From the NCBI GenBank assembly GCA_947034895.1, contig OX344762.1, positions 15,294,760 through 15,358,759 on the forward strand: 64,000 nucleotides of DNA, in the 5' to 3' direction. Source of the DNA: Rhytidiadelphus loreus (Eukaryota; Streptophyta; Bryopsida; Hypnales; Hylocomiaceae). Every line of letters starts with the position of its first letter. Position 1 is the first letter of the stretch. The notes beneath the pieces are model-generated. The model saw nothing but the letters and a program-made list of their open reading frames with translations. It did no database searches and was not told where the DNA came from. Position numbers and translations under genes: made by a program. Shown here one piece after another: positions 445 to 35,490 of this stretch.

Positions 445-479
445 ATATATGGGGAATTTCGTTAAAATGGCGGTATTCC
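445..479 (+). repeat. Left TIR of nested element (with putative ATATAT TSD)
   Basis: Perfect inverted match to 35242-35276. Just inside it the 15-base string TTAAAATGGCGGT recurs (462-474 and 482-494), giving a small subterminal direct repeat. Confidence 0.8.
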
Positions 480-685
480 ATTAAAATGGCGGTTCAGAGC
501 TCCCAAGTCTGAATGAAATCCGACCGAAAATGGTAGCCGGGGGGATGAAATCCTGCAACAATGATGGGTTCCTGTGATAAAAACACCTTTTCCTCGATTC
601 AATCAAAGTTGGAGGGGTCCATTTCAGGACGAAATCATATCCATTCCGTGCCTTCTTAGAGCGGGCTACCTGAAAGAAAGTTCCA

Positions 686-1340
686 AAACAACTCTAAGCG
701 CCATTTGTTGTGCGAGGCGTGCATGACTCTTACAATTTGGGGTGGATCACAAAGACACATCACATGGCCACTTGGGTGTGGGGCAAAGTGGCCGAGAGGA
801 AAACAATTCACGGATCTGGATGCGCGGTCATGCACGGGAGAAGAGGGGGCGGTGCAAATGAAAGCACGGCCTCGGTGTAAAGAAGACAGTCTACATTCAA
901 TAGTAAGGGTAATTATAGTGGTTTTTGCATAGGGATCCGAACCCGCTTACATCCAACAGTTGGGGTGGATCACACACACACATAACATTCAATTGGCCAC
1001 TCGGGTTTTGGGCAAAGTAGCCAAGAAAAAAACAATGTCTGGATCTGCATGCGTGGCCATGCACGGGGAGTAGAGGGAAAACAGCTCTAAGCGCCATTTG
1101 TTGTGCGAGGCGTGGATGACTCTTACAGTTTGTGGGGGATCACAAAGACACATCACATGGCCACTTGGGTTTGGGGCAAAGTGGCCAAGAGGAAAACAAT
1201 TCACGGATCTGGATGCGCGGCCATGCACGGGGAGAAGAGGGGCGCAAATGAAAGCGCGGCCTCGGTTTAAAGAAGACAGTCTTTATTGAATAGGGTAATT
1301 ATAGTGGATTTTGCATAGGGATCCCAACCCGCTTACATAA
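686..1340 (+). repeat. Two and a half direct repeats of about 260 bp
   Basis: 686-952 and 1079-1340 are near-identical, sharing 'ctctaagcgccatttgttg', 'atcacatggccacttggg' and 'gaaagcgcggcctcggt'-type stretches. 956-1078 is a partial, more diverged copy of the middle part. Short open frames here are shared between copies, but no protein family was recognised and I do not call a gene. The repeats lie just inside the left TIR of the nested element. Confidence 0.8.
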
Positions 1341-1524
1341 TTTCTAGCTCTCTTCTACGGGAGAAGGTGCAGTCCAAGAAGAAACTATTTACGCCCAACT
1401 TTTGGGGACCATGTACTGCAGGACAAACTCAAAAATGGAGGAAGGTACAATCTGAACTATACCATTCTAAGTTCACGCCGGGACGCACGACTCGTTTTTC
1501 ATTCGCCGACGCAGAGGGGTGAAT

Positions 1525-2779
1525 CTGCACTCCGCATTCTCAAGTCGCGCCTCCTAAACCGCATGCAACCATCTTTGAGTGAAGGGTCTTGAGCTTCATG
1601 AACAAAAGCAAGCGCTTATTGGCCAATCATGTCGTTGGGAAGTCTTTACAGGGCATTCGCAGATTCCCAGACAAATGCTCGTCAATTGCGACATGGACCA
1701 CTTCCGGCGTTGCCTCTTTGCCAAATACATCATGGTTCAATCGGTCGACCGGGAGAGGTAAAAGCAAGAGCACTCACAACCCATCCACGTTCATAGGGGA
1801 AGTCAACTTCCTCGTCGGAAGAGGTTGACACATGGTCACCTTTGAAACACAACAGGACCCACCTCGCGAAAAGGGCGTCGCCAACATACAAGGAACTCAT
1901 CGACGCAAGGAAGGACGGCGTTGTCATCCACATTTTCTGACAGCAGTTCGAGTGTACCTGGTGGGAGTGATCGCCATCCACCGTCCGTGTCCTAGCATCC
2001 GGAGTTTTTGAGGGTGAGAACCAAAAACGGTTGACTTTTCTCGGAAAGTGCATCGGTGTGATGAGGCTGTTGATCGGAATACCTATTGGCTGCTCATAAC
2101 TCAAGCCGTCCAGCGGATGGGGGGTCGTCCGCATCCAACCTTGCACACTGAGAGTCAAGTTGGATATGAAAGACCCATGTGCATCCACTCGGCGGCTTGA
2201 GTTATGAGCAGCCAATAGGTAATCCAATCGACACCCTCACCACACCGATCCACCGTCCCGAGAATAGTAGACCGCATCTGGCACATGCCCACAAAACCCC
2301 CGGATGCCGGGAGAAGGAAGGTGGATGGCGGTCGCTCCCACCAGGTACACTCGAACAGCTCGAGGAAAATCTGCATGACAACGTCGTCCTTCCTTGCGCC
2401 GATGAGCACCTTGTATGCCGGTGATGCCCTATGAAGAAGAGGGCCCTTGATTCCAGTGCCATGAATCCCCTATGCATATTCATGTTCGGACAGAAGATGG
2501 GCCGCCGGGCGTCCCTACTTTTGCTCTACACAGTCAGCAAGTTCAACCATGAACGAGCCAGCACGATAACAACGCTAGAATGGATCCACACCGCACTTGA
2601 CAAGCATTTGTCCGCGTGTCTACGAATGCCCTGCAAGGTCCTCACAAGCGACATGAATAGCAAATAAACACCCGCTGGTGTTGGTGAAATGGTGGTTCGC
2701 TGACAATCTACAATTTTGCAAACTAGAGGGGCAGTAAGCAACGTGGGGAAGTGGTTGACACCCGGAAACTAGGTCGCCC
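1525..2779. repeat. Palindromic (foldback-like) tandem unit 1
   Basis: The left half of the unit is an imperfect reverse complement of the right half, folding near 2150. A 28-bp perfect pair sits at 2081-2108 and 2193-2220 (core CTATTGGCTGCTCATAACTC). Further out, 1610-1760 pairs with about 2530-2690, so both strands translate to related peptides around 'LQGIRR...DKCSS'. Arms are about 550-600 bp. No transposase or recognised domain is encoded. The unit recurs in tandem at 2780 and 4206. Confidence 0.8.
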
Positions 2780-4205
2780 ACTCCACATTCTCAAATTGCG
2801 CCTCCAAAACCGCATGCAGACAACTTTGAATGAAGCACTAGAAGAAAACTGTGTTAGAATCCCTGAAAACACATCACCTTGTTTTTGTTAAGTTCCCGTT
2901 TCAAAACGCAGGCAAAATGCGGAAGTCAAAACATTTTTCTACGTTTTGAAACGAGAGCTTCACGAAAACAAGGTGACGTGTTTTCAGGGATTCTAACACA
3001 GTTTCTTCTAGTGAAGGGTCTTGAGCTTCATGAACAAAAGCAAGCGCCTATTTGCCAATCATGTCGTCAGGAAGCCTTTACATGGCATTCGGAGATTCCC
3101 GGACAAATGCTCGTCAATTGCAACATGGACTACTTCCGGCATCGCCTCTTTGCCGAATACATCATGGTTCAACCGGTCGACCAGGAGAGGTAAAAGCAAG
3201 AGCACTCACAACCCATCCACATTCATAGGGGAAGTCAACTTCTTCCTCGAAAGATGGTGACACATGGTCACCCATGAAGCACACCAAGACCCACCTCGCA
3301 AACAGGGTGTCACTTGCATTCAAGGAGCTCTTGGGCGCAAGGAAGGACGGCGCTGTGATACACATTCTCCCCAAGTTGTTCGAGTGTACTTGGTAGCAGC
3401 GACGGCCATCCACCGTCCACGTCCTAGCATCCGGAGTTTGGGAGGGTGAGAACCAAAAACGGTCGACTTTTCCCGGGAAGTGCACTGGTGTGAAGAGAGT
3501 GCCCATCGGAGTACCTATTGGCTGCTCATAACTCAATCCGTCAAGCGGATGTACCGTCGTCCGAATACCACGGTGCACAGCGAGAGCCAAGTTGGTTTAC
3601 GACGACACACATGCACTCGACGGCTTGAATTATGAGCAGTCAATAGATACTTCAATGGACACCCTCCCCACACCGATCCACCGCCCCGAGAATAGTAGAC
3701 CGCATGTGGCACATGCCCACAGAAACCCCGGATGCCGGGAGAAGGACGGTGGATGGACGTTGCTGCTACCAAGTACCTTAGAACAACAGGAGGAGAATGT
3801 GCATGACAACGTCGTCCTTCCTTGCGCCGAGGAGCTCCTTGAATGCAAGTGACACCCTACGAAGATCAGGGCCATGGATTCTTGTGCCATGAATCCCCTA
3901 TGCATATTGGTGTTCGGACAGAAGATGGGCCGCTAGCGTCCCTACTTTTTTGCTCTACACCAAGTCAGCAAGTTCAACCATGAACGAGCCAGCACAATAA
4001 CAACGCCAGAATGGATCCACACCACACTTGACGAGCATTTGTCCGCGTGTCTCCGAGTGCCCTGCAAGGTCCTCACAAGCGACATGAATAGCAAATAAAC
4101 ACACGCTGGTGTTGGTGAAATGGTGGTCCGCTCACAGTCTACAATGTGCAAACTAGAGGGGTAGTAAGCAACGTGAGGACATGGTCCACACTGAGAGTCT
4201 AGGTC
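2780..4205. repeat. Palindromic tandem unit 2, interrupted by a MITE
   Basis: Same layout as unit 1, with central arms at 3512-3539 and 3621-3648. Without the 178-bp MITE and its 3-bp duplication the unit is about 1.25 kb, like its neighbours. The right half includes the same 'aataaacacacgctggtgtt' stretch that mirrors the left-arm start. Confidence 0.8.
2836..3013. mobile_element. 178-bp CACTA-type MITE
   Basis: Begins CACTAGAAGAAAACTGTG and ends in its reverse complement (...TTTCTTCTAGTG), with about 70-bp inverted arms and a short centre. AAG flanks both sides (2833-2835 and 3014-3016), the 3-bp target duplication expected of CACTA elements. The paralogous sites in units 1 and 3 read 'gtgaagggtcttgagc' with no insert, so they are empty sites. 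Too short to code; non-autonomous. Confidence 0.93.
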
Positions 4206-5440
4206 ACCACATTCTCAAATTGCCCCTCCAAAACTGCATGCAGCCAACTTCGGGTGAAGGGTCTTGAGCTTCATGAACAAAAGCAAGCGCCTATTTGCCA
4301 ATCATGTCGTCGGGAAGCCTTTACAGGGCATTCGGAGATTCCCGGACAAATGCTCGTCAATTGCGACATGGACCACTTCCGGCGTCGCCTCTTTGCCGAA
4401 TACATCATGGTTCAACCGGTCGACCGGGAGAGGTAAAAGCAAGAGCACTCACAACCCATCCACGTTCATAGGGGAAGTCAACTTCTTCCTCGAAAGATGG
4501 TGACACATGGTCACCCATGAAACACGCCAAGACCCACCTCGCGAACAGGGCGTCACTTGCATTCAAGGAGCTCCTGGGTGCAAGGAAGGACGGCGCTGTG
4601 ATACACATTCTCCCCAAGTTGTTCGAGTGTACTTGGTAGCAGCGACGGCCATCCACCGTCCACGTCCTAGCATCCGCAGTTTTTGAGGGTGAAAACCAGA
4701 AACGGTCGACTTTTCACGGGAAGTGCACTGGTGTGAAGAGAGTGTCCATTAGAGTACCTATTGGCTGCTCATAACTCAATCCGTCAAGCGGATGTACCGT
4801 CGTCCGAATACCACGGTGCATAGTGAGAACCAACTTGGTTTACGACACACATGCACTCGACGGCTTGAATTATGAGCAGTCAATAGATACTTCGATGGAC
4901 ACCCTCTCCACACCGATCCACTACCCCGAGAATAGTAGACCGCATCTAATACATGCCCACAAAACCCCCGGATGCTGGGAGAAGGACGGTGGATGGACGT
5001 TGCTCCTACCAAGTACCTTAGAACAACAGGAGGAGAATGTGCATGACAACGTCGTCCTTCCTTGCGCCGAGGAGCTCCTTGAATGCATGTGACACCCTAC
5101 GAAGATCAGGGCCATGGATTCTTGTGCCATGAATCCCCTATGCATATTGGTGTTCGGACAGAAGATGGGCCGCTAGCGTCCCTACTTTTTTGCTCTACAC
5201 CAAGTCAGCAAGTTCAACCATGAACGAGCCAGCACAATAACAACGCCCGAATGGATCCACACCGCACTTGACGGGCATTTGTCCGCGTGTCTCCGAGTGC
5301 CCTGTAAGGTCCTCACAAGCGACATGAATAGCAAATAAACGCACGCTGGTGTTGGTGAAATGGTGGTCCGCTCACAATCTACAATTTTGCAAACTCAAGG
5401 GGCAGTAAGCAACGTGGGGACGTGGTCGACACCCGGAAAC
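4206..5440. repeat. Palindromic tandem unit 3
   Basis: Highly similar to unit 2 without the MITE. Central arms are at 4757-4784 and 4860-4887. The right end merges near 5440 into a second subfamily of palindromic units. Confidence 0.8.
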
Positions 5441-6251
5441 TAGATCGCCTTGTTGTTGGAGAGAGACCAAGTATCCTGTACAAAAAGGCCAACGGTCAAT
5501 TCCGGACTTGGGGGGGCAAAACAGCGCACTGAAAGACCACGTAGGGTATTGATAAGCCCACCTTATGATATACGGAGTCCTCAACCTCATTTACAATCGC
5601 ACCAAGGTGACGTCCATGCCTTCCTCCTTTGGGGCCACGTAGCCGGAGCCAGAGCACTCTGAGTTCTACCTTCGTCTGCCTCTGATGAATGTCGAGGCCC
5701 CAAAAGAAGGGGTTGGTGGACAAGTATTGTGACACCATTGCCGGGATGGGGACTATTGTGAACAGGGTGCCTATCAGCGCACCTGCTGGCTGCTCAGAAC
5801 AAGGACCTTCAAGTGGGAGTGGAACATTCATATCCAACAATGCGCAATCATCGAACACATGCTGTTATGCATTTTTCGAGGAATGAGCAGAGCTGGATAT
5901 CATTGCTCCACTCCCACTTGAGGGCTCGCATTGTGAGCAGCGAACAGGTGCGTCGATAGGCCCCCTGTCCACAATAGTCCCCATCCCGACAATGGTAGAG
6001 CGGCTGCGGTCAAAGCCCACGGAGACGGAAGGATGTCGCGGACGACGCATGACGGTGGCTCTCATGGTGTACCTCGAACGATGACGGAGGGAGGGGTTCA
6101 TGGTACTGCCTCCCGTCGTTGCCCTTGCCATTCCCGTGAACGCAAGGAGCAATGCCTTCCGAGTTCTCCGCATGCGAGCTGACGATGCTGCCCACGGTTC
6201 AGACCGCGCGGTCTGAACTGCAGACGCCGACGCTCCAACCATCGTCACTTC
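5441..6251. repeat. Truncated palindromic unit, second subfamily
   Basis: The fold centre is near 5880. 'cgggatggggactattgtg' at 5741-5759 pairs with the reverse complement near 5975-5995. The left arm is shorter than in the next two units, so this copy is 5'-truncated. It ends with a TTCAGACCGCGCGGTCTGAA palindrome at 6198-6217. Confidence 0.7.
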
Positions 6252-9283: not shown

Positions 9284-9544
9284 GATGTCTTCTTATAGGG
9301 AAGTCGAGGTCACGTCCTCGCCCGCGTCGCCCGCCTCGCCCGGCGCCTCGCAACTGTCGGAGGAGCCCACTCCTTCCGTCGTCTGGGTCCGCCGTCGCTT
9401 CATCCGTCGAGGGCCCCTTCGCGCACTGTCGACGGAGTGCCCGCCGAAAGCGCGAACGCGGCGCAGCCCCTGTATACCCATCCATTTCCGCTTGGTGCAT
9501 CAACCCTTTTCTTTCTTTTGCACCACGTGCTTCGCTCTTCGATA
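9284..9544 (+). CDS. Possible short ORF, unidentified
   Basis: An ATG-initiated frame of about 86 codons starts MSSYREVEVTSSPASPASPG and is serine/proline-rich, then arginine-rich. It overlaps the 3' end of the FCP1-like gene on the opposite strand from 9500. The region is GC-rich and open in several frames, so this may be a chance frame or a first exon. No family was recognised. Confidence 0.2.
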
Positions 9545-10990
9545 GACGAAATGATCGTTCCCGTCTCTACTGTACGTGCCGACAAACTCTGGATACTCCA
9601 GCAAGAGAGACCTGTCCTGCAACGCAGCTAACTCACGCACATTGAGTCTAAGAGAGGGCGTCCTGTGGTTTCCGAAAAACAGATTCCGAGACACGTACTG
9701 CGACACGCTAAGACCGGACTCTAGCAGGCCCTTGAGATAGAGTCGCAACGTCCTGTCCATGGTGGAATCGTGCGGGCTGCCAATGTACGACAACGGGAAG
9801 ATGGCATTGTGCACGGGATTGAGGATGCTGCTCTCAGGGGAGGAATTGATGAGTAGTGTGTTGCTGGAATTGGCCCTAAATGTGCCGGATTTGAACCTAT
9901 CTCCGTCCCAGATGGCCTTGTGCAGAACCTTGAGCCTCAGCCTCCCCTCGGGATGGTCGGGGAACTGAACGTACGTGTCCTCGTCCACGTCAGTATCCCA
10001 CTCGGGTTGGTAGGGGTGCGCCGGACAAGGCAACGAGGGGAGGTGTGGGGGGGCCTACACCTGCACAACCGCCACGATCGTCTCTCCACGATGGAGGTGC
10101 AGTCCTCGAGCGTGAGTACGCGCATGGACGAGCGCTCCAAGCCGCGGAAGAGGAAATCGATCATGGGATTGGCCACGACGGCCGGCAGCCTTGTCCACAT
10201 AGACAAGCGAAACCTCTTCACCAGGCCTTTGAGGAATTCGCGCACTTTCGGACGACACGAGAGGGAGAACTCGCCGAAGACGTGGCGTTTCGTCGGATCG
10301 TAATCGTCCTCCGGTGGTGCGCTTGCTGCGGGCGAGCGACCGGATCCGAGGGGCCCGACGTGCTCAACTTGGCATAGGACTCCTTCCAACTCCAAGACAA
10401 CAAAATAACTGTACAAGGGCAAAGCAACGGGAGGCGGCAGCGCAGGCAACGGCAACGAGGCCTGCGTATGCGAAATCCCTTGTTCAAAGTAGTATTTGAA
10501 AATTGAATAAACGGGAGTCCACAATTGAAAATGCGCCCCCCCCAACAAGTGTGGGAGGCTTGAACACAGAGACGTGAACCCTTGTCTATTATCATCCTCT
10601 TTCTAAACGAGATCCACGTCCGATCCCTACAAACTATCTAGGCAAGCGCTACGGAGGCAGTGAGCAGAGGGATGCAAGGAGATCGAGCCTCACCTTTGTT
10701 ACATCCGGAGTGGTGGCCGCAACGGGAGTGGTGGCACGCCTCGTGGCGGCGCGAGTCTGGACACCCGCGACAATGGGAGACACGACCTGTGCAGCTTGCG
10801 GAGGGGGGAGTTCCACCTCAGAGACCGGAGGGGGGAGTTCCACCTCAGAGACTGGAGGGGGGACTTCAGCAATGGCGGGAGCCTCCAGTGCCATCGGTGG
10901 CGGACAAGGAGGGCAACTCGGTCGACGGAGTACCAGTGCAGACTCTTCGCCCAACCCAAGAGCATGGCCACCCTGAACCGCAAATGCCAA
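9500..10990 (-). pseudogene. FCP1/SCP-like HAD phosphatase-like gene, catalytic residues lost
   Basis: Three minus-strand coding blocks are visible. The first is a proline-rich N-terminal exon (about 10990-10687, ending before GTGAGG). The second (about 10480-10050) contains LELEGVLC, RPKVREFLKGLVKRF and SMWTRLPAVVANPMIDFLF. The third (about 10000-9500) contains NTLLINSSPE, NPVHNAIFPLSYIG and LRLYLKGLLESGLSV. In order and spacing these match the FCP1-type (NLI-interacting factor) HAD fold. Known active members carry DxDG at the first motif and acidic residues after the 'ID/DD' strand; here they read ELEG and INSS. Phosphatase activity is therefore unlikely. Exon joins are inferred, since the last two blocks are in different frames and a short intron is assumed. 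Expression and function are unknown. Confidence 0.6.
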
Positions 10991-12814
10991 TTGCCAAGAG
11001 CGTAACTACATTGCCCAAGAGGACTTGGGATAGAAAGCACAATGCACAACACTCTACATTGTACATCACTCAATGCCACGAATTCCCGAAAACACGAATT
11101 GCCAAAAAATGAAACCGATATATTACAAATAGAATACAATGTTTGTACAAACTTTACGAACAGTGTTTCACGAATAATCCGAAAATCACGTCTGTACAAC
11201 TAAAATGTCTGTACAACTAAAATTGTCATAGGCCTCGCCAAAAGGGCTCCTACATCTATGGGCCTGTCGCTCCATGGACGGTGGACCTGTCGGGACGACC
11301 TTCGATCGGCCCGACGTAACACCCTCACATAGCTTCCACACCTGGAAGCGCAATTCAAAAGATGGGGAGCTATGTGGAGGGGTTACCCACTGTGGGAGTC
11401 TGGACGTTGTCGAAGGGTGAGTCGACTGGCGCATGCTCCTCGTGCCTCGCAGGGGGCAGTGCCGGAGCGATTGGGGCTTGCAAGGGAGCATACTGCTGGG
11501 TCAAGTTAGTGAAGGAGACCTCCATATCTCCCAAGTCGACTTCCAAGTCGTAAGGGTCATCGTCGTGGATGCTCGGACGATGCACTGGCCCAACGACATG
11601 CACAAACGGAAATTGACTGAGGGCTAGGTCATCGAATCTGTCTGGATCGTCAACGACACTCACCGAAATATTTGCAGCCTCTCCTGAACCCAGCTGTCGA
11701 AGTCCAGACGCTGCGGTGGCCGTGGCGGCGGAAATCGAATTCGTGGTGGAGACTCCGGAGACGTTGTGGAGCTCGCTCACAGGAATGGGAGTCGCAGCCA
11801 TTGGAGGGGCACTTGTCTGCGCGGCCTGCTTCGCCAGAATCTGCTCCTGCAGTTGCTTGAGCAGCAAAGTGTTCGTCTCGCGATCCCTCCTATACTCCAT
11901 TTCCTTCTCCGCCTGCAGCCTTCGCTCCTTCGCGAGTTCCTTCTCCTTCTGCGCCTTCTTGGCCTTCCGCTTGATCTTCTTCTCCTCCTCTACCCGCTCC
12001 CTCTCCTCCCTCTCCCTCTTGAACTCCCGATCCTTCTCCCTTAAATCCCTCACGAGGTTGTCGATGGCGTCATTGTGCTTGTCGAGCGCCCCCGAGTGCC
12101 TCTGCCTTTCCCGCTCGAGCATCATCTCCACGTACGCGAGGTTGATCCCTGCCTTGACGTCCATGTGGATGGGTTTGGCGTCCATGTCCACCGCGGCCGG
12201 AGTCCCTCCTGCCTCGGAGGCAATCCCCGCGTCCGATGTTGCCGCTTTCGCCGCGGCCTTGGCCATCTTGTTGTACTCGTCTCTGTTGGTTGCTGCCAAG
12301 GCCAGTCGGTTGTCCAAGTCTTTGTCGTCCATCTCGTCCAGATCGATTGGGCTACTCTTTGTATTCGTGGACTTGAGGGCGAGTTGCCGGTACACGGCGC
12401 GCGTATGGGCCATGAACAGAAGCTCGCCCGCGCTGGCGGCGGGCAGTTCCGACTCCAGGATGTCGACGCTGACCTGCGCACCGATCAACTTCATCATGTT
12501 CTCATCCCCATTGAGATCGGATGGATCGCGGATGGACCTCAATTCCTGGACAATCGCCTGCGACGCCTGAATCCTACATTCCACGGAGTCATCACTGGGA
12601 TTCGCGGGAGAGGCGGCGAGGTCGGTCCTCACACTCGCCACCTCCGCCTACCTGGCCGAAGACAGTAAGCTCTCCAATTCAGCCAAATCAGCCTGCAGGT
12701 CCTGAATGAGCATTCTCGGGGGAGGGGGCGGAAGAGACTCCTCCACAGGAGTGGACACCTCCACTGCAGCCGCCTGCGGTCGGGGAGTGGGAACGCGGAA
12801 GGCATGTGCCCGTG

Positions 12815-13100
12815 TTTCAGACCGCGCGGTCAGAACTGGAGCGCGGCGATCCTTGGAAGATTGGGTGACGGGATCCGACTGCAGGGCCGGATCTTGAGGT
12901 CGGGGGGAAGCAGAGGGAGTGCGAGGAGATGGAGGTGGAGGTGGAGGGGACAATAGTTGGTTTGCGGAGGGAGATGGGGGGTTGGAGGGAGAGAGAGGAG
13001 TGTGCGGGTGCATATCAAACCGCGCGGTCTGATTCCTGCACGGAGGCGCACTCGAGTGCCGCGGGGAGGCTGGCGTCGAATCAGACCGCGCGGTCTGATC
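12815..13100. repeat. Three copies of the 20-bp palindrome inside a coding exon
   Basis: Copies lie at 12815-12836, 13014-13034 and 13079-13100. On the minus strand they are read in frame as (Q)TARSE or (Q)TARSD-like peptides in the disordered part of the methyltransferase-like protein. One copy has lost symmetry at one arm. Confidence 0.85.
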
Positions 13101-15067
13101 CGTCTCCCTTTGGACAGAGTGGACGCCGGACACCGAGGCATCTCCGTGGTCTGAAACGTTGTCGCCTTCGCCGTCTCGCCCTCCCGCGCGGTCGACATCT
13201 TCATCTTCGTCCTTGTCCACTTCCTGGTCCTCGTCGTCCTTGTCCTCGTCCTCGTCCTTCTTCTCCTTCTCCACTTCCGAGTCGGAGTTGCTTCCATCGC
13301 GGAGGTTGAGGGCGCCCTCTTGCGATTCCTCCTTGCCCTCTCTTTCATCATCCGAAGACTCGCTCTCCACGGGGTCAGGGTCCTGGAGCCTCCGTGTCTG
13401 AGACTTGGGGTTGTAGATGAAGTTGAGGGTGTGCGGCTGCGGCACCAAGATGTCCGGCCACATCTGTGTACCGATTCGAGCGTGCACGCTCTGGCGCAGG
13501 AGGCACTTATCGGTGGGGCGCACGAAGGAGACGGAGCTCCGACACAACATCTGCAGTGCCAAACAAGGCACACGGCATGAATTCTCCGAATGACGCATTC
13601 AGACGGTCAGATGAGCTCTACATTGGAAGCAAGAACGGGATAGGGTGGAGAGCTTACCGAGCATGCAGAGACAGGCTTGGATCCCGCAAAGACGAGCATG
13701 ACCGTTCCTTGGTCCCTGCAGAACTTGTTGATGAAGCGGAGGTACACTTCGTATCACAGTTCGCGATTCGTCAAGATCTAGGGGTTATCGTGGCGACAGA
13801 GCTCCCGGGTCTTGTACCTGACGTCATCCGTCGCCAGAGGCTTGTCCTCGGCAGCCGAGAGTTGGGGAATCGGTTCCCCGACATTGACGAGTGGGGAGTT
13901 CGTGAAATGCTTCGTGGTCCGCTGAATGTACATGACCCTGTCCTTCCCCCTGGTGTAATAGTTCGGCTCGCCTTTGGAATACACGTACGTCGCGATGTGC
14001 CAAGTGTTATGCTCGGGGAAGAATTTCTCGAGCGCCTGTTCCACTCCCACCACCCTCTCGGCGCCCATGATGAGCATCCACGTGTGGACCCCCTTGGCCA
14101 TGGTATTTTGGGAGACCCGCGAGACTTGTTTGATGATTTTCTCGTACGCGTAGTGAATCTCCATATTCCCGACCTCCGGGAACAGGCGGAAATCCATAAT
14201 CCCCACCTCGCAGAAGCGAATGCTGGCGGGTCCGTCCACGTATTCCACCCATTCGCGCTTCTGCTTCACGTAGACAAAGGGATCGAACACCCTCCTGACG
14301 CGATCCCACCGGCAGACCGTGGCCCACGCACACCTCTTGACGGTGTTGCAGCGTTCGTTGTTGGTGAGCAGTCGCTGGATCATGGCGACGACGTCCGAGG
14401 GAGCAACCATCGTTTTCTTCCCCGAGCCACATTGATGCCTGAGCCACTTCTGCCCAATGTGCATGGCGGCCCACATGTTGTGCCCCCGAATGCACAGCAG
14501 CGCCTTGAACTCTCGCCAGGCTTTAGGGACGACCTCCCCCTGGGAAATCACCTCCTTGGCCTTGTCGATGCCCAAGACGTTGGCCTTCTCCTTCATCTCG
14601 AAGATGAGCATTGCCTTGTGCTTCTTGTTGGTGCACCACTGGGCGAAGGGAATGGCGGCCATCCAACTGGTCGGCCTCTTCAGGTAGACCTTGGGCGGCG
14701 TCTCCAGGATTCTGCTCGCGAGCTCGCCTACGGCGGCGTCATCCATCCCCAGAAGGTTCTTCATCTAGTTGTGATTGATCGCCGTGAACTTGTAGATCTT
14801 GGAGCCCCCCTTCCCGTCCGGAATTTGGTTGAACGGGACGCCGGTGTCGATGTCGTGCAGCGCCCCGGACTCGTGCTTTTGGAAGACCTCTTGCCAATTG
14901 GTCCAGGTCGCATTCGAGGCCATGACGATCTTCCGGTCGCCCATCTTGTCGAAGTCCCAGGTCCTCCCCCCCCCGTTTCAGTGCTTGGCGCTCCCCACCG
15001 CCTCGAAGTTTTGGTGCGCCTTCTCCTTGAAATCCTGGACACGCATCGGCGCGGTGAGTATGTGTCG

Positions 15068-15270
15068 TGATCTGACCGCGCGGTCTGAACTGTCACCGAA
15101 CAATCCACGACACCAAGTGGCGTCGAGGTCGGAATATCGCGGGATCAGACCGCGCGGTCCGAAGTGACCATGAATCAGAAAGGTGACGACCCTAATGAGG
15201 ACAGGGGGAGCCTACCGATATGGAATGGGACGGAATTGCATCACTGGGATTCAGACCGCGCGATTTGAAA
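15068..15270. repeat. Three palindromes clustered at intron 1
   Basis: Copies near 15071-15090, 15144-15164 and 15250-15270 all lie inside the inferred 15035-15292 intron of the methyltransferase-like gene. Core ACCGCGCGGT or near variant. Confidence 0.85.
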
Positions 15271-21400: not shown

Positions 21401-24400
21401 GGATTTGGTCAATGAAAGCATATATTACACCACTGACTTGTCCATCCGCCAACTAATGCTTGGCGCTAGCAGGGTTAGAGCTTAATTTCCTCCATGTATT
21501 GTATAATCCCATTTAATGGTCAAGCAACCACGTTATAATCACTTCAGCGTCTGCGATAAAAAGAACACAAAATGCGACCGTGAAGAATTGGTACTCAATC
21601 CTGTTCATAAATAGTTACATATTTTTCCACTCATAACACACCATTCTAAAACGAAAAAAAAAGAATTTAGAATTTTGCAACTATCATATTTCTTGTGAAC
21701 TAAATCCAAAAATACTTGATATATAATTTGAAAACACAATACTGGGTACTTAGAAATATAACGAACTTACTAGGATGGTTTATTAAATTTGGGATTTTGT
21801 TATCTTGATTTGTTTGTTTGAATTATTGTGTTTTGTTGTTGCTATTCTAGAAGTGGAGGTATTTTAATCTAGATCAATGTACCAACTCTTCTCAATTTCC
21901 AACATCTGAAACTGTGTCCGAAATTGTACTTGGCCAAGTTGTTGTTCCTCCTACACTTCACAACAATTATGTGAGTCTATTTGGGATATCAAAGAATGCA
22001 ACATGGCTTACTCTCTAAACTTGTCACCATTCTTTCATTTATGAAAATTGAAACTTACACAATTCTATTAATGTACCATGATGCACAAATTAATTTCTTC
22101 TCCTCTTCGATTTTATTCACCATTACATTCATATCTCCTATTTTTTTTAAATCAAGAGATTTTCCAATACCCTATTTGATATATAATCCTATTTCAAGAA
22201 TGAAATGTAGGCTGAAGTAGACATTTGAATCATATTTGATATTTGATATTAATTTCTTCACTTAGTCTATCTTTTGAAGATGGAACAATAATTTCAAATC
22301 GTCACAGACTTAGACTCTTACATTAACAAATTCTACACACAATGAGATTCCATCATAGAAAAGAAAAAATTGCAATTTATATCACACCTTGACGATTTGA
22401 AAAATGGATCTATACTAACTAAGACCTTATAGGGGTTCATGACATTGTTAGTAGCTCAAATATTATTGACACCTAGGAATTTTGAGTATTGTGCTTTTAT
22501 GTGAATGCTAAACAATTGATTTATAACCATGATATTTTAAATAGCACATACGACAATAAACCAAAAATTTTCTTTCAAATTTTGAACAAGCTCAGTTATA
22601 CGCTCATTAAGACAAACGTATAGAATGATACCTTCCATCAGTCCTAAGAAGATCCATGCTACTACAAAATAGTGACCAACAAAAATGAAATTTGCTTCAC
22701 CTAAGCTATTTCTACATATAATGAATTATTTGTTATGAACAAATTTTTGTTTCGAAAATCTAAACAAGTCTACAGACTTACAAATCAAGACGGAAGTATT
22801 GATACCCTTTCATTGACTTGGAGAAGATCCATGATGCTATAAGACAATGTTCAACTAAAATAAAATTCAATGTGATAAAGATCATTAGATATAAAAATAA
22901 TTATTATCAACCATGTTTTTTTTCTAAAATCGAAACAAGTCTAACAACAATGCATTAAGAGAAAATTATTAGTACCCTCCCATCAACCATTCAATCCTAA
23001 GAGGACCCTTGTTGCTATAAGATCGTAATCAATCATTATTCTATATGAACTTATTTCCATCTCCATTCATCTTTCACATCAATTGAGTTCATGATTGTTA
23101 TAATTTCTACTTCTAATATTTTAAGAAACATTGGAAATTTTGATTTTCATTTGAATTCTACAAAACCACGGTAATAGGTTCACGGCAGTAGGTCTATAGT
23201 AATAGATACGATAATCCACTAAAAATAGAAGATTTTGATCAAAAATTTCAGATGAATTTTTATTTTTAGCAATATTCTTAATTTTTTAGTACTTCTTTAA
23301 ATTTTTGAACTTAACGCTCGCACAATCTTGCTCACCGCTTGAAATCTCATCATGCTCGCAGGCTCACAAACTAGCACCGCTGACTTTGGCAATTTTTTCA
23401 ATTTCGACCGGGTAGTCTAAAATGTTCAAATGTCCTAGATTCGCACCTAGATTTCTTAGAACTTCATCATTTTTAAATGTCTGAAATCTACATGAGTCAT
23501 AGATGGCACTTCTGTAGTTCAAAATACACCGCTTGAAATCTATAGAGATCCTAGATTTCTGAAATCTATATAAATTCAAGATTGTTGAAATCTATACCTG
23601 TCCTAGATGTCACTTTTGTGGTTCGAACTAGGTACTTTGAAAATGGTACACAAAATACGTCCTTTTTAACATAGAGAACCCATAAATATTATTGACGTAT
23701 AAGAATTATAGGGTAGTTGCAAGAAACACCTGCCGGTTTGCGTTCAAAACGGCCATTTCACTCCTGCTTGTGGATTTTGGAATAAATTTTTTTAAATAAA
23801 ATAAAATATGGATAATGTGTACAGCATTAAAAAAATGGTATGTGCAAAAATTCAGACCTAAATTTTTTATTCTCTAAGAGTTATGCATGGTCAAAGAGGG
23901 TTGAAAAATGCAAGAAAATAGACAGTTTGAAATTTAATTCTTAAGAAACAGTAAAAAAATTCAAAAAATTCAAAAAAAAATCTATTTTTTCTAACTTATA
24001 GATACTCCTTTTCACCAATTTTCACTATTGGAAAAATAAAATTGTGTTCTCTACACTTGCGCAAAGGTAGTGCACTTTGAGCACATGTGGCAGATGGAAA
24101 ATTATCTATTTTTAGAAAATCTTTGGTAAGGTTGTGTAACTTTAGTAGAAGTTCTAGTATACCAATTTTGAGCTTCAAATTCGTATTTTTGGGTGGAAAA
24201 TAGTGCTAAACCCCTTCAAAATGGCCACGGTAGACATCCAATCGGGGGCAATTTAAAAATAGTAGAATAACTATAAAAAAAAACCTTAAAAAGTACTCAA
24301 CATCTGAAACTACCACATGTACCTTCATTTCAAGTTTCATAGAAGATGGACACACGATGCAAAAGTTATGAGCAAAAAACCAGCTATCTAAGGTCTAGGG

Positions 24401-25640
24401 GACCAAAAAAACGTGAAGTGTTTCTTGCAATCACCCTATATCAAAAATCTTGTTCATTTTGCTTCTAATTATGTGAAAATGAAACAATTGATTCATAACC
24501 ATGACATTTCGAATAGCATATATACTACCCAAAAAAAAAAAAAAAATAGGTACACCTAAGGTCAATCACTCAATGATCAAACTCAATTGTCATTTAAAAA
24601 ATCATGGCTTTTTAAATGATTCTCACACATATGAACTTGATCATGTATCTCATAGCAAGATGTCTCATCCAATGCTTTTTAAATGCAAGTTTCTTGCTCA
24701 CCTTTGTGCGTGAAGTTCAGAGCTTACTGTACCTTCTCTAAAGCTCACTCACAACTTGAGAAACTGAGTGTTATATTTCAGACTTATGAAGTTGAAGTTT
24801 TCCCGGAGTTGCAAGTGAACTCCAGCATTATCTAACTTGGATTATTTACAAATTCGATGTAATCATGACTGTTCCAATACTACAAAATGATTGAGAGCTT
24901 TACTCTATGATGAATTCCATGGAAACGAAATATAGCAAAGAAGCATAATTATATGAAATATACAACATAAAATGTGTTGAATTTCCAATGAAAAAGTAGA
25001 CATTTATTCTATGAGATATCCTAGTAAGTGGAAAATATAGATGTAGAGCATTTGCGGCCCGCCCAACTATGGCTTGAGAAGATCGGTGCTAATATGCTCA
25101 CATTTGTTGAAGTTGCCATTTCTTTGTATTCGTATATAATTAGACCAATTCATTGAGAGGCTTGTTGAAACACACCATCTGTAAGTCCAATACTATTGCT
25201 GAAGAAAAGGTAGAATTATTTGAAAATTCTAAAGCTTAAAGAAACTCAGGATTCAACGTTGTTGAATGAATGACTGTGTGTAGTTAGAGGCTTGTTTTTT
25301 TGGATCATTTGGAGACAACCCATTCTAAGTATTGAAATATGAGAGCCACCCCCCCTAGGTAGTTGAAACCCCGGATGCAAATATAGACCACCATAACAAA
25401 TCTTATATTCATAAAGTCCCAAAATAACTGACATTGGCAGGATCTGGATTGGAAGCCAGAAGTGAAAAACCAAGCAGTATAGATGATTGCCATGAGTAGG
25501 AATTCACAGCATACATCTTTCGTTCTAGGAAAACAAGAGACTACGAACGGAATATGAAGCAATATAACAAGGGCAATGTCTTTTTTCTATAAAACCTGTT
25601 CCCCATGCAATGCTACTCAGCAAGAGTTGATTCCTCATAG
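18495..25640. other. Gene-poor, mostly AT-rich core of the nested element
   Basis: I see no convincing gene. 18820-19400 has A- and CA-rich simple sequence that leaves long frames open on the minus strand (leucine/phenylalanine/cysteine-rich translation, not protein-like). From about 19680 the DNA is strongly AT-rich with poly-A and poly-T runs. The contrast with the GC-rich flanks is sharp. Confidence 0.6.
20050..20140 (+). repeat. Interstitial TTTAGGG-type tract
   Basis: Short runs of GGGTTTAGGGTTTAGGGTT and GGGTTAAAGGG lie in a direct duplication: the stretch beginning 'cctaaattcttggatagg' occurs near 20045 and again near 20102. This matches the plant telomere repeat in sequence, but with only two or three units per run. 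Confidence 0.75.
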
Positions 25641-25667
25641 ATACAGTGAGCCAGCAAAAAAGTGCGA

Positions 25668-27660
25668 TCAGCGGTTGCGACGTCGAGCCCCGCGAGGTTG
25701 AGGCGAGAGGTTTGCCAGATTCACTTGTGCTTGATTCAGCCGAGCCCGCACTTGCTCAAAAATATCTAGGTCGACATGAACGGCTTGCGACTCTTTGTGG
25801 AGATGTTTGGTTCCATGCTCATCATCCTGAGAGAGTAGTGGTGGAAACATGTATTCCAATGAGTCAATATTGGTATCAGGTACTTGGCAATTGAACCTCG
25901 ATTAATTTAGAACATTCGTTTACCAACTTAACCGACATCATTGCATATCATGGATGACTTTTTCCCAAGTGGGTGAAGATTGTTGTGTCCCTTCCGAAGT
26001 TTGACATGGATTTGAGAGTAGAGTCCCTTCGATGACAAGGTAGCATTGGACATATTAATCTTTGTCTATCTCCTAGTAGATGCTATTCGTAGGTAGGGAC
26101 GAGCGTTTACTACTAACTTGAATGAGTTGTAGTAATAAGGAACCATTCTCGGAGGTTGATAGCTTGTTGGCATCGTCGAATTCTTCCATGAGAGCTCTGT
26201 ATGTCACGCCGCAGCCCCCACTTGAGCATGATTAGGACGAAAGAAATTGTGAAGTGAAGAACATGATTGCATGGTACAAACCCACTGTACTACTTGTTGC
26301 TCCAAATGGGGTCTGACATGATTGACATGGAGTGGTCACCTGAGGTTCTTGCAGTCCTTGCCATGGTGGATGTGGACATACTCCTCCATCATGACCCACA
26401 CATCCCGAATTGCTGCATCAAATAGTGCACCCCATGCCACTTCCATTGTGTTTTGCAACGCACACATAACTTGACCTACAGAAAGGAAGCCATCAATGTT
26501 GTCCGAAGTGGTATTCACGAGCGCGCCATTTAAAAAATAAATGATTTGAATTGAATGCAGCATACAAATGCACGAAGCCCAACATGGTCCATATAGCACT
26601 CACCCATCTTGCTGTCTTGGAACAGCCCCTTGGATGTATCACAGTGAGAATAATGGGCAAAGCAGTACAGTTTGTATCCTTGCCAGAAATCTTGAGCTCT
26701 GTTTGGGAAATCATTCCAATTGGAATTCGCAAAGATTGATGTAAGCAATAATGGTCATTTCCAGAATACATGGGCAAGCACACGAGCATCAGATTCTACT
26801 TTAATTTCGTGAAAATGGCGGGTTTTTGTGGACCATTTCCGAAGACCGCAGTTCGAATAGTGTCCGACTTCCTCAGTGAGCTGTACCGAGTTCAGACCGC
26901 GCGGTCTGAACTGTGGAGGTTGCGTCATTGAAATTTTCTGCTGTTGGACAGCTTTCTCAAATCTTAGATAGTTGGCGTGAAGCGACGAAAGGAAGGTCAC
27001 TATCGTCATGGAATTCCGCAGTCTCGGACTCCAGACCGCGCGGTCTGAAGTCCGTAAGTCCCATCTATGTCAATTTTAGTTTTCAGACTTCTAGGAAGCA
27101 TCTCATCTCATTTTCCTAAATCTAGGACTATGGGAGAATCGTAAAAGTGACTGACAGGCCCTACAACGTCTTGGATTTCCTAAGTCGTGGACTTCGACGA
27201 ACTTCAAACCGCGCGGTCTGAAGTGTGACAGTCCCGTCCGTGTGAATTGTAACTTTCTTCCATCCACTTGTGATCCAGTTTTCCGAAATCTAGGACAGTT
27301 GTGGATTTCGGACCGCGCGGTCTGAGCTGCAGAAACTTGTAGATTTGCGAAACCTCGTTGCTAAACCTCCGAGTCGCCAGTCGAATGGGATTATCATAAT
27401 GGCCGTGATGGCTTTCAATAAATACAATGCTCGGAAAGCAACAACTTGAAGTCAGTTCAACGTACCCGAAGTTTTGATGGTCAAGTATAGTTCTGAGGTT
27501 GTGGGAGCACTTGCTGAAACGTGAGTCTGCCATTGAGCCTCGTCGAATGTGCACCTACCCCCAAATCCAAGAAACTTGTATGCTTTAGTTGTGCAATTTG
27601 GAGCAAAGGGAGGTACCTTTTGAATCCCACTTCGGAAATGACAAGCATTGCAAGTCAGTA
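25668..27660 (-). CDS. Spliced unidentified gene, paralogue of the gene at 55.05-56.05 kb
   Basis: Six coding blocks run leftward: about 27660-27544, 27526-27466, 26698-26604, 26475-26340, 26196-26118 and 25826-25668. The last five have GT-AG borders at the same codon phases as the paralogue. The first block contains LTCNACHFRSGIQK and PPFAPNCTTKAYKFLGFG, with a CxxC pair that could bind zinc. Later blocks read SKCSHNLRTILDHQNFG, DFWQGYKLYCFAHYSHC, ALQNTMEVAWGALFDAAIRD, SENGSLLLQLIQ and DLDIFEQVRARLNQAQVNLA, ending in an arginine-rich tail and TGA. No family was recognised. Conservation of exon borders between two distant copies argues that it is a real gene. The start is not established. Palindromes lie on its 5' side (26891-27326) within presumed introns. 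Confidence 0.65.
26891..27326. repeat. Four copies of the 20-bp palindrome
   Basis: Copies at 26891-26910, about 27030-27049, 27200-27222 and 27307-27326. They fall in the presumed intron between the 27466 and 26698 exon borders of the unidentified minus-strand gene. Confidence 0.85.
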
Positions 27661-28319: not shown

Positions 28320-28774
28320 TTACACGAGTTTCCCTTAAACTATATTAAATGGGAGAGTATCATACGAGTTTTCTGTAGATGACCCTACTGTACGTCCCAT
28401 GAATCTCTTGTATTTGTCGCTTCCCTCCTATTTTGAAGCCCGTGCCAATGACAGTGAGAGCTTGATGGACAAATGAATGTGTTGTACTATTAGTAATTCT
28501 TGTTCCATCCCACTTTGACTAATTCCTGACTTTCAACGACATTTTCTTTGAAATCAAATTGAATGCATTGCATTGCCGTGGTCGCGTGTTTTTTCAATAA
28601 TTTACATGAAATCAAATTATTGTTTCCCTTGGAGCTTCCAAAGGTATCATTCCCTTTCTATTTGAGTTCGTAATTCTGATTTGTGATTATTCAATGACAT
28701 GTAGAGTGCCTATTAGATTGAATTTCAGTACACCTTCACCTCGTTCGATTTCCGCGAGGTCCGTGACTTTCACA

Positions 28775-28960
28775 TTTGAGACCGTGGGGTCTGAAATGCA
28801 AACCTGTTGATATGAAAGGACACTCCGAGGTCAGGCAGAAGGCCTCGTTTGGAGGATGACAAATTTCTATGACTGGATTCCTGTGAAGACGTCCAGTCCC
28901 TATCGTGCAGGAATTTCTCAAGTTCTGCCGTTTTCACAATTCAGACCGCGCGGTCTGAAC
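28775..28960. repeat. Two palindromes, one degenerate
   Basis: 28775-28798 has a GACCGTGGGGTC core and has lost symmetry. 28939-28960 is a perfect AATTCAGACC...-type copy. Confidence 0.8.
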
Positions 28961-30550: not shown

Positions 30551-30553
30551 TTT

Positions 30554-31347
30554 GTTTTTGACCGCGCGGTCTGAAACGTTTTGAGACGGAGGATTTGATA
30601 TCCGGAAACTTCACCCCCCACTCATTCCAGACCGCGCGGTCTGAAATGTTTTTCGACCGTATTCAGAGATCCGACAACGGAGAGTCCATTTTGGAGATCC
30701 ATCGGATTTCCCATTTCAGACCGCGCGGTCTGAAATGTTTGATACCTCACCTCGTGTTCCAACATCGGATTTTCATTTATGTCCAAGCGATGACAACTGT
30801 TTCCTGCTCGTACAGCATTTGTCGAAATTCTGGATTCTCATTCCAGACCGCGCGCTCTGAAATGCTCCATGTTACCTCTACTTGGAAGGACTGGATCCGA
30901 GTAGTTCGGACAACAGTTCAGACCGCGCGGTCTAAAATGTTCCGAGCAAGTTACTGCTCCGGGAGGTTCCGCTCATAGGATTCCGAAACATTCATGGTCT
31001 TATTTTGATGAATCCACAGACCTCTTGAATTAGACCGCGCGGTCTAAACGAACGACACGTTCACTGCCGAAGATATCGTCCTCTGCAAGTATGGAGGCTG
31101 GCAGTGAGTTTGAGGCCGTCGAATTCTGACTAGTACCGGTTGCCGTAGGTTCATCTCCTTCTCTAGTGGACTTCCCGTGGCTCCTCACGATCAGACCGCG
31201 CGGTCTGATCCTGGAGAGCACTTGGCAATTATGAATGATATTTTCAAGACAATGGTTGCAGTCCGTTGGATGAGTATCATGTCATGCATGCACGCGGGAT
31301 GTCTGAATGATTTGCATATCCTGTCTTCCAGACCGCGCGGTCGGATT
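30554..31347. repeat. Array of eight palindromes 5' of the transposase-like gene
   Basis: Copies start near 30554, 30624, 30713, 30841, 30916, 31028, 31189 and 31327. The last ends about 110 bp before the inferred ATG at 31460. Outer arm bases vary but often in matched pairs, for example GATC...GATC at 31189 against TTTC...GAAA at 30713. Confidence 0.85.
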
Positions 31348-31459
31348 GAATTTGTCTGGGAAGCATTTACCACTTCCTGCGACAACTTACGCAGCTCCCG
31401 TGCGGGCCCTCCTTGGAGTGGGAGACTTCGTTTCCGGAAACAACTTCCGAGGGGCCAGT

Positions 31460-34400
31460 ATGGCTTCTGGCAGCGAATCCGACGGCGACGAGGTACCCCA
31501 CTTACTCATCGACCCTGCGTCACCTCTCGGCATTCTGCTCCGCGTCCCGAGTTGATTCTTGACCGTGGCATGCGCAGGGGTTCCAAGAATGTGAAGAGGA
31601 AGACGTCGACTTGGAGGCACCTGCCTAGGCAGATGTGGACGCCACTCCCATTCCGGATTGTGAGGGCATTGGTCGGGACGCATGGTCTGGCAAAGCACTG
31701 CTCGCGAGGCATGCCGACGGCACCGATTTCGCGGAAGTCATCATCATCAATGCCAGTCCAAACGCATGCATTGATGATAACAGCAGGCTGGGCGTGGATG
31801 ACGTCAGCATTGTTGTGCTCGAGGTCCTCAATGGGGACCACAGCGTCAGCGACATGTGCTTGCAATGGCCTATGCGACGCGTCTTTTATCACGGTGAACA
31901 CGGGTATGTCAGTGTTTATGATCACGCTCGCAAACGATGGGCTATCGAGGAAGAACTGCAAGGAAACCGGAAGAGAATGGGCGGACGACAATATCGCTAT
32001 AACAGGAGAACTCGAGCTGCCGTAACATTGAACAAAAGGACCAAGATGCTATCACATGAGTCCATCGCCGAGGTCTACGCGCAACTTTGTTGTGACAAGG
32101 AATGCACTCGCAAATTCTCTCCTTCCACCATTCGCGCGCTGCGGACAGAAATGCACATGCAGTCATTTCAAATCAGGAGCACCCGAAATTTGGATGTACA
32201 CAGGGCGCTGCACGAAGCATGGAGAAGCGGAAGGAGGAAAATGGTCACCGTAGAAGGCATAGACATCTGTCCGCATGCCTGGAGGGTTGTGCACAACATT
32301 ACTCGCCGCACGTTCGAGAGGTACAAAGCCAAGGCCAAGGTCGGCGTCAGAGGCGCTCCGCACGGAAACCACCACCATACAAAGGCTAGGGATGCAACTG
32401 TACAAGCCATCGAGACTTTGCGCTCATTATTGGAGGCAAGGGCCGACCACATGCCCCATTTGTCTCACACCTTGCGCACGGGCGAGAAAGTGGGCGTCAA
32501 AGTGCTCCCCGCCGGAACCGAATGGGGGCAATTGTTGGTCACCGTGAATGAGGTAAGCTTCCCACGTACCTACAGCATCACTTGAGATTCAGAGAATGAG
32601 GCACTGGCTCCACTGCGCATTACTCATGACAATGATCCAAAGTCCTTGTCCATTGTGATCATTCATCCAACAACCATGTGCTTGGCACTGTTTGCAGGCC
32701 AACTCTGGACTCGGGTTGTCCGCCCTTTCGCAATCTTGTTTCAGTAAGATCCGGACAAAACATTTTTCCGAGTACGTCATCAAGGGAAGAGGAGATTCCT
32801 TTGCAAGATGTAGCATTTGCGACACCTTGAAGCAATTACGTGCTTCTTTTGCACCTGGGTGCGAGGACTACGAACGAATCCAGAAGCGTTTCGAGAAGCA
32901 CTTGTTTCTACAAGAGGCCTGTCGGCATGCCTACTACCGGAGTAGATGGTTGTCCAAATTGCAACCCATGCAATTGTTATCCATCATGCACGACAAGATG
33001 GACCATTCGAAAACAGCGTGTCCCGCATTGGCGAGAAAAACGAAGGCACTCAATGGACTCATGAAGTTGCCCATGAAAGTGACGGGAATCTTTGCACACG
33101 GGCATGGGGATGGCAAATACGCACATTACAATTTGGACGTGTTTCGGAGCGACAGCAACTTCACCGTGGGATCCATCGCCAAGCTGTTGCGAGATTTGGA
33201 AGCCCCTCCCATCAAGTCTTCTCGATCTTTGTTTGCTGGAGGCGGCAGCACAGAGTTGTATCGAGCATTGCTGTCAGGTAGCGAGATTTGTGTGGCTTCT
33301 TTGGGAGAGGTTCCTCCACAACCCATCGAAGCCCAACCATTGCCCCCGATGCTCCACGTTCAAATGGACAACTCGTGGAGGGAAAACAAGAACCGGTACG
33401 TCTTTTGTTTTTGGTCGCTCTTGGTGGCAAGGCGGATCGTGAAAGAGGTGATCGTATCCTTCATGATCGTGGGACACACGCACGACGACATGGATGCATC
33501 GTTCGGGCGTTGGAGCATGCAACTCCGCGAAAAGGACCATCGCGTTTTACCGTTGTTGATGCAGTCGTACATGGAAATGGAACAAGGCCCCTTCATTCCC
33601 CACCTGGTCGAAGAAGTTCCGGATTTCAAGGCTTACGTGAAACCTTACATCGAGATGCAGAAGCAACAACTGGTGGGCCACTCGCACGGCCGGCAATACA
33701 AGTTCTTCATGGACAACAACGGTTGGCCAATCATGCAATACAAACTGGCGTGTACAGACATTCCTTGGTTGCCGGAAGCGGGCTTGAGGTTATGGAAGGA
33801 AGATGCTGAGCACAAGCCTCTGCTTCCGCAAGGTGATCCCTTCCGCGTGTCTCCCAAGAAAATGACGAGCGAAGCCGAGATCGTGCGCGGACTGAACAGA
33901 TACATCCAACACTGGATGGACGTATGCAGAGACGGGACGGCGGAGTACAAGGCGCGCATGTCCTATTTGGTCGCGTATTGGAGCGGCGTGAGAAATGCGC
34001 TGCGTGACGGAGCGGAAGAAGACCCTCGCGACTCTGATGAGTTGCAGCAGGGGTTTTGGCCTCAGACTCGACAACCTGGGGATTTCACGACGGACTTCAT
34101 GCAAGACGGCCAGACGCGGGAGGAGCACGAGGCGGAAGACCCTTACATCGGCACTCTGGAGGGGAGGCCCCCGCCAGCGTACAACGTGGCCACTGATCTG
34201 CGCGAAGGCTTCTACGTGTTTATGAGGCCGGGCTTGGATTGCGAGGATCCGGTGTGGCTTGGTAGGGCTGTGGAGAATCCTCAATTCGATCCTGCGGGAG
34301 TCCACTTCCGTGAAGTTTTGGTGCAATGGTACATCCCGTGCGGCACCTCGAAGGACACCGCGCGGTTGTACGCCGGGTGGGACACGAAGTCCAGTTTCAG

Positions 34401-34569
34401 ATGGAAGATTGACCGTAGGGCGAGCTAGGCGGACTACGTATCCACGGACAGTATTATGGCCTCGTGGAAACCGAAGAAGAATGACGGGAAGAGCTTCATT
34501 GCGCCGCGTCAACAAGTGCAATTTGCGGTGGACAATTTGCGTCGCATTGCAGAGGAAGAGGTACACTAA
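31460..34569 (+). pseudogene. DUF7869-type transposase-like protein with two in-frame TAG codons
   Basis: Inferred exons are 31460-31492 (MASGSESDGDE), 31578-32552 and 32698-34569; donors and acceptors fit GT-AG and all joins are phase 0, giving about 960 codons. The N-terminal part is acidic. Then comes a cysteine region (LCCDKECTRKFSPSTIRALR) and helix-rich DNA-binding-like sequence (ICPHAWRVVHNITRRTFERY). The core has HDKMDHSKTACP (about 32990), HVQMDNSWRENKNRYVFCF (about 33360) and FMIVGHTHDDMDASFGRWS (about 33465). This is the DUF7869 signature, an RNase H-like fold in mobile-element proteins with acidic residues at the catalytic positions. TAG interrupts at 31626-31628 and 34426-34428; coding continues for 46 codons after the latter to TAA. 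The first exon is the least certain. Near the right TIR, it is the best candidate mobilising enzyme of the nested element. Confidence 0.8.
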
Positions 34570-35241
34570 CTTTTGAAGAATAATTATGATGGGCTTTGCT
34601 GGAGAGGGATGTTGGAAGCTGTATCTTTGATGCGCGCTCAGCTACCATGCGTTTTGGCCGAGTGACGGCATTTGACATATAATGTAGCCAACGGTGAGTG
34701 GTCAATGGCAATCCATGTAGTTTTGGACTCGTGCTTGAGATTGCATTGTTGAGGTCCTTGGTAGACTTTAGGAAGCGTGGCGTGCATGCTAGCCGATTTT
34801 TGTAACGACCATTTTCTTCGAGAAATTATATTAAATGATGCGTTTCATTTTTGGAGGGGCTCGTCCATTTGAAGGAGTCCTATTTTGAATTCTCTTTATG
34901 CAATATTTGTTGATCCCGCGTTCATGAATGATCACGCCGAATTGTCCATCGTGGGTTCCTGACCCCTACCCCTGATGCCCCCCCCTTCCATTTGAGGAGG
35001 CGACAACAGAAAGCCTGCGGTTCCAAAGATTCCAGGAATATTCCACCATCTCCCCGTTCGTTTTGCCCGCCTTTTGCGAACTAGATTTGTGCCCATTGTC
35101 TGTCCTTCCTCTCCTAGTACGCAGAAAATGCATCTTCTCGTGCCGTGGGGTCACTTTGTCACCCCCCACCATCACATCCAACTGGCTACGTAGCACACAT
35201 CCTAAACCACCTTTTCGGACCTTCATGTACAAATGGCATTC
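34570..35241. other. 3' flank between transposase-like gene and right TIR
   Basis: No gene is seen. There are short C-rich and G-rich runs (for example at 34963-34988 and 35158-35166) and otherwise mixed sequence. It is the right subterminal region of the nested element. Confidence 0.5.
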
Positions 35242-35276
35242 GGAATACCGCCATTTTAACGAAATTCCCCATATAT
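35242..35276 (-). repeat. Right TIR of nested element (with putative ATATAT TSD)
   Basis: Exact reverse complement of 445-479. CACTA sequence resumes at 35277. Confidence 0.8.
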
Positions 35277-35465: not shown

Positions 35466-35490
35466 GTTGACGTGGCCTAGCCACGTCAAC
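35466..35490. repeat. Short perfect inverted repeat in CACTA body
   Basis: GTTGACGTGGC and GCCACGTCAAC are separated by CTA. The right half recurs at about 40076-40086. The surroundings (35530-35790) are rich in GATGTC/GACATC, as is 39900-40340. Confidence 0.7.

Follow-up and report, generated by a model that had tools for sequence, protein, structure and literature searches.

DNA transposons of the Sola superfamily (Sola1–3), reportedly described by Bao and co-workers in 2009, are defined by a 4-bp target duplication and a DDD transposase. Published examples include a Sola1 of Physcomitrella (listed in the accessible part of PMC9033089) and bivalve Sola1 elements with a mean length of 5445 bp (accessible part of PMC10294476). 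A giant member of the Sola1 group, Sola1-1_Ec32 of Ectocarpus, is described in the available portion of PMC12477816 as 21.5 kb long, with a 1104-aa ParB + N4C/N6A-methylase protein encoded on the strand opposite the transposase. Here we analyzed a 64,000-nt stretch of the moss Rhytidiadelphus loreus (assembly GCA_947034895.1, contig OX344762.1, positions 15,294,760–15,358,759 of the forward strand; hereafter the window, with positions counted from its first letter), which contains an element of comparable organization. This element is probably a decayed copy of a giant Sola1-kind DNA transposon of the cut-and-paste type, approximately 33.5 kb in its common form.

Element ends and target-site duplications

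The original prediction described a perfect 35-bp inverted repeat at both ends, and the match is indeed exact (445–479 and 35242–35276). Target duplications were read at ten pairs of ends picked from matches to the 29-bp core of the repeat (2 kb flank each), at ten further pairs and in the window. An identical 4-bp flank was present outside ATGGGG...CCCCAT in nine of the ten pairs of the first set (exception, L027/L028) and nine of the ten of the second (exception, L049/L050); with the window (ATAT) counted in, 19 of 21 pairs had such a duplication. The termini are therefore 31 bp long and start with ATGGGG, and the duplication is 4 bp rather than the 6-bp ATATAT proposed originally; ATAT resembled part of the inverted repeat because it is its own reverse complement. 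By this rule the element proper occupies 449–35272, with the left terminal inverted repeat ATGGGGAATTTCGTTAAAATGGCGGTATTCC at 449–479 on the forward strand, the right one at 35242–35272 on the reverse strand, and identical ATAT duplications at 445–448 and 35273–35276. A partial repeat, ATTAAAATGGCGGT, begins at 480, directly inside the left terminal repeat.

End patterns were searched on both strands of the 407,041,205-base host assembly, in which contigs C1–C4 measure 94.4, 89.9, 84.8 and 75.1 Mb; totals were counted over the whole assembly, and the first 100 places were listed for each pattern. The 29-bp core (up to 3 mismatches) had 1404 forward and 1399 reverse matches, while the same core read backwards as a control had 0/0 in this assembly. 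Left-end-specific and right-end-specific patterns were found at 149+147 and 95+94 places, respectively, and family places extended as far as 49.7 Mb on C5. A listed, inward-facing right end was located within 100 kb of 59 of the 100 listed left ends, 37 of these at 30–36 kb. In 200 trials of random right-end placement against 100 left ends, with a length assumed for C5, the means were 1.3 pairs within 100 kb and 0.075 at 30–36 kb. Inverted pairs of the kind anticipated by the original prediction thus occur elsewhere in the genome. Among the listed left ends that were perfect, 51 of 71 were paired, 42 at 31–41 kb and nine at 45–76 kb; the wide pairs may contain nested insertions. A right end in the wrong orientation was also found within 100 kb of 12 of the 100 left ends, as expected for neighbouring elements.

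Movement as a unit and age of copies

All ten sampled copies were collinear with the window over approximately 7.5–8 kb inside each end, barring small indels, and their main blocks were 95–97% identical to it; four had the orientation of the window and six the opposite one. Homology broke off at most a few bases from the termini, except that the alignment of L015 ran about 15 bases further. Two copies followed through the middle were collinear with the window except for a diverged stretch and a segment of about 145 bp (23658–23802) that was present in the window and absent in both of them. The diverged, gapped stretch (18400–20100) was far more so than the rest of the element.

Another copy (C1:46671664–46704064, ends L035/L036) sits in a repeat whose uninterrupted relative neighbours the element in the window, at 35460–36214 on the forward strand. 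The joined flanks of this copy, with one copy of the 4-bp duplication, aligned with this segment over 779 columns at 84% identity, with 24 gap positions and none at the junction (within 35839–35849); window 35460–36214 is a paralogous empty site of that copy. In addition, short derivatives were identified, one of 247 bp flanked by GTAT/GTAT (L003) and one of 246 bp flanked by TCAT/TCAT (L018), the ends of the latter starting with ATGGTC instead of ATGGGG. Because of the paired ends, the 4-bp duplications, the collinear copies at unrelated places and the paralogous empty site, we conclude that the family moves as one unit, as had been suggested for the whole ~34.8 kb. The genes inside had been regarded as cargo, in the sense of variable passengers; because all ten copies were collinear at both ends, they appear to be resident instead, and the two copies followed through the middle had the same content there.

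The mean pairwise difference among 11 copies was 2.3% at the left end and 1.8% at the right end, and singletons outnumbered shared sites at both (631 vs 132 and 523 vs 112, respectively). C>T/G>A changes accounted for 686 of 997 substitutions at the left end and 566 of 796 at the right, with 280 and 284 at CpG. This pattern suggests that the family underwent a recent, star-like burst and then decayed in a manner that looks methylation-driven. The window copy is a decayed member of a giant, high-copy DNA transposon family, commonly ~33.5 kb long, whose full-length copies number on the order of a hundred. Recent expansion of such 33-kb transposons in a moss genome indicates that this size is no bar to multiplication.

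Genes of the element

A DUF7869 transposase-like gene had been placed beside one end, and this gene was recovered at the right end (31629–34581, forward strand; exons ~31635–32549 and ~32698–34581, with the 5' end provisional), its product matching DUF7869 in Pfam with E=2e-43. The protein has a predicted RNase H-like core with conserved Asp residues. Among the organism-named rows of the 120 relatives listed, DUF7869 proteins of Physcomitrium patens and Ceratodon purpureus were 43–46% identical over 64–97% of the query, and two aligned moss proteins of about 940 aa shared its two-part layout. Exon 2 in the window has a premature stop after 34425, and this copy is probably unable to make its own transposase; in the ten other copies, exon 2 was open in seven, exon 1 in five and both in three. 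A DUF7869 relative with 45% identity in a single 963-codon frame was also observed in a contig filed as a cyanobacterial metagenome-assembled genome (L053, 1–4327), which is likely eukaryotic contamination.

On the opposite strand, a gene of at least three exons occupies 11373–16978 (16978–15293, ~15034–13658 and 13550–~11373). In the window it is interrupted by stops at 16253–16255 and 12648–12650. Both stops are absent in copies L029 and L032, which retain open exons 1 and 2 (583 and 509 codons), but in which exon 3 ends earlier; when L032 was read through its splice signals, a protein of 1707 residues was obtained, ending about 36 residues before the end of the window frame. Intron 1 (15035–15292), whose length and boundaries were taken from L032 and whose donor is present in the window, contains three of the palindromes described below. 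The original prediction called this gene ParB/methyltransferase-like. In L032, the stretch GIIVRPLE...LLIINGQHTWMAAK resembles the ParB N-terminal fold, and RHDNP...RDQGTVMLVFAGSKP...HARI resembles the C-terminal half of N4/N6 methylases, judged by motifs known for these families. The usual methylase motif, DPPY, was not evident by motif reading, and neither domain was confirmed when Pfam, PDB sequences and PDB profiles were searched. The name is thus backed by motif resemblance and by the published parallel, without support from hidden Markov models.

With 7994 best candidates scored for exon 1, we found eight relatives of this exon and six of exon 2 (39–55% identical), none of which carried a functional name. 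Exon-1 and exon-2 relatives were listed on contigs of equal size (5119; 5144), and a relative of exon 2 (P0132) and one of the transposase (P0007) on contigs of an identical 338,987 b, which suggests that the transposase and ParB-like genes co-occur elsewhere.

A third gene, predicted as FCP1-like, lies at 9503–10602 on the reverse strand as two overlapping frames. Membership of the NIF/FCP1 family held up in Pfam (E=5e-5 in the window, 5e-11 in L032). The catalytic motif of FCP1 is DxDxT; here the nucleophile motif is degenerate and reads VVLELEG in the window, L029 and L032, with ELEG at the DxDxT position, and phosphatase activity is therefore doubtful.

Among other features, three degenerate direct repeats with internal inverted arms, spaced 1.43 and 1.24 kb apart, are located near the left end (1532–5449). 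An AT-rich interior (20000–27400; 30–45% GC) has no ORF of 120 codons, both in the window and in the two copies compared with it.

A palindrome array within the element

The element contains 36 copies (up to 4 mismatches) of the palindrome TCAGACCGCGCGGTCTGA between 6199 and 31345, densest at 17006–18492 (12 copies) and 30557–31345 (8 copies), with none in the rest of the window at the same threshold. Upstream sequence of the two main genes, taken as 1.5 kb before the start of the ParB-like gene and 1.1 kb before the resolved part of the transposase gene, accounts for 20 of the 36. These two regions make up 7.6% of the element (binomial 1e-13, a generous value since the regions were picked after seeing the map). 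The outermost 5.7 kb on the left side and the outermost 3.9 kb on the right are free of palindromes.

In its 20-bp form (up to 2 mismatches), the palindrome had 27 matches in the window element and none in the remainder of the window, and two further copies had 25 and 20. In the genome it was detected at 2396 places (control, 0), which would amount to ~100 full-length equivalents, assuming that almost all belong to elements of this kind. Of the 50 distinct places listed first, every one on C1, 30 were within four paired elements, 18 more were no further than 33.5 kb inward of a family end, and two (C1:17196698 and 17196788) were not; among the places listed, the palindrome is almost private to the element family.

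It also appears to be kept in the intron of the ParB-like gene in relatives, as far as their translations indicate. ORF tails after exon 1 read SDRAV-stop (P0121), SNRAV-stop (P0124) and SNHVV-stop (P0126), or had FGPRGPN within (P0125), and heads before exon 2 read QTAQSE (P0129) and FRPHGLK (P0130), all of which are translations expected from a palindrome of the TCAGACCGCGCGGTCTGA type. Strict peptide patterns matched four of 134 proteins (P0121, P0124, P0129 and P0130); P0125 and P0126 are looser readings by eye. The tail of P0128 had no peptide of this type, and P0122 and P0123 end too early to judge.

Proposed mechanism and alternative explanations

From what is known of the family, the DUF7869 protein would act as a DDD transposase, binding the 31-bp termini, excising the element and integrating it where the target is cut with a 4-bp stagger. 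The opposite-strand ParB-like/methylase-like protein may bind the palindromes, which cluster in front of both its own gene and the transposase gene; such binding could regulate both promoters or mark the element. We tentatively propose, at somewhat less than even confidence, self-recognition in the style of ParB–parS, in which a methylase-derived ParB-like protein would bind ~36 private 20-bp palindromes that are scattered across 25 kb, most densely in front of its own and the transposase genes, thereby marking or controlling a transposon in a eukaryotic nucleus, with the methylase half serving as a non-catalytic DNA-contact module. Alternatively, the transposase or a host factor may be what binds the palindromes, which would then be comparable to the subterminal sites of Spm/MuDR. 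Arrays in known plant transposons bind element regulators, and eight palindromes lie upstream of the transposase; however, they are not subterminal, and they occupy the intron and upstream region of the ParB-like gene. We regard this alternative as a fair possibility, though less likely than not.

As for the element itself, its genes could be captured host or viral genes in a giant non-autonomous composite that is bounded by two transposon ends and depends on a smaller relative for movement in trans. Consistent with this, the window copy has stops in both the transposase and ParB-like genes, and the excess of core matches (2803) over left-/right-specific ones (485) places most family ends outside the sampled giant class, two such ends inspected closely bounding derivatives of ~246 bp. 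However, the same content at both ends of all ten sampled copies, the open transposase exon 2 in seven of them and the identical contig sizes of P0007 and P0132 make a composite unlikely. The size, the several genes and the ParB/methylase flavour might also be expected of an integrated virus-like element, such as a Polinton or a giant-virus fragment. Against this, no polymerase (PolB), integrase, capsid, protease or packaging gene (including the packaging ATPase) was found in the Pfam-scanned ORFs, a set that did not cover every short ORF; no transposase relative was detected in viral contigs with a single-protein query, which reaches close relatives only; and the short derivatives, which have ends of the same kind, are a typical feature of DNA transposons. 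We consider a viral origin very improbable. Segmental duplication or satellite-like amplification, with ends that hold a dispersed short repeat by chance, would fit the great abundance of the end sequence by itself. It is contradicted by the target duplications, the empty site and the common boundaries, can be dismissed for the 19 sampled pairs that carry duplications, and has next to no likelihood.

Sequences surrounding the element

CACTA (EnSpm) elements have CACTA termini and a 3-bp duplication; the element itself, with ATGGGG ends and a 4-bp duplication, matches neither trait. The original prediction had nested it in a CACTA transposon. None of the seven outer ORFs scanned encoded a CACTA transposase (surrounding CACTA termini were not searched systematically), and nesting was not borne out; one ORF was hAT-like, one kinase-like and one RING-like below the curated cut-off. 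The hAT-like ORF, close to the window's right end (60462–63755, forward strand), is a long open transposase frame that matches DUF659 with E=3e-35 and the hAT dimerisation region with E=6e-5. Several ORFs at 42620–60210 are surrounded by arrays of GACCCGCAGTCGCCC-type motifs running in both directions, and this region looks to be a further large repeat family characterized by a motif of its own. The protein-kinase-like ORF (51193–52800, reverse strand; E=1.5e-11) lies inside this motif-rich region and is possibly also carried by a mobile element.

Comparison with known elements

Sola elements usually measure a few kilobases, whereas the moss element reaches ~33.5 kb; it shares with the superfamily the 4-bp target duplication. 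Starships, Polintons, KDZ and other giant elements differ from it in recombinases, ends and duplications. These elements belong to the same size class (accessible parts of PMC6431247 and PMC12477816). The closest counterpart is Sola1-1_Ec32, likewise a giant DNA transposon with a transposase and a long opposite-strand ParB-like/methylase protein (available portion of PMC12477816), the moss domains being assigned by motif resemblance. Because of this matching layout we placed the element near Sola1, and we designate it giant Sola1-like on layout rather than on direct comparison with Sola sequences. The earlier view that no element of this size and content had been described therefore holds in part, the brown-algal element having the same gene layout at 21.5 kb. 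Unlike it, the moss element has a NIF-like gene, palindrome arrays and a methylase motif that looks degenerate; the available portion of PMC12477816 makes no mention of palindromes for Sola1-1_Ec32. Thus, a giant Sola1 with the ParB-methylase layout was already described there, and the palindrome array, which is new in this analysis, offers the published ParB-methylase idea a concrete, bench-testable candidate binding site of the kind it lacked in that portion of the text.
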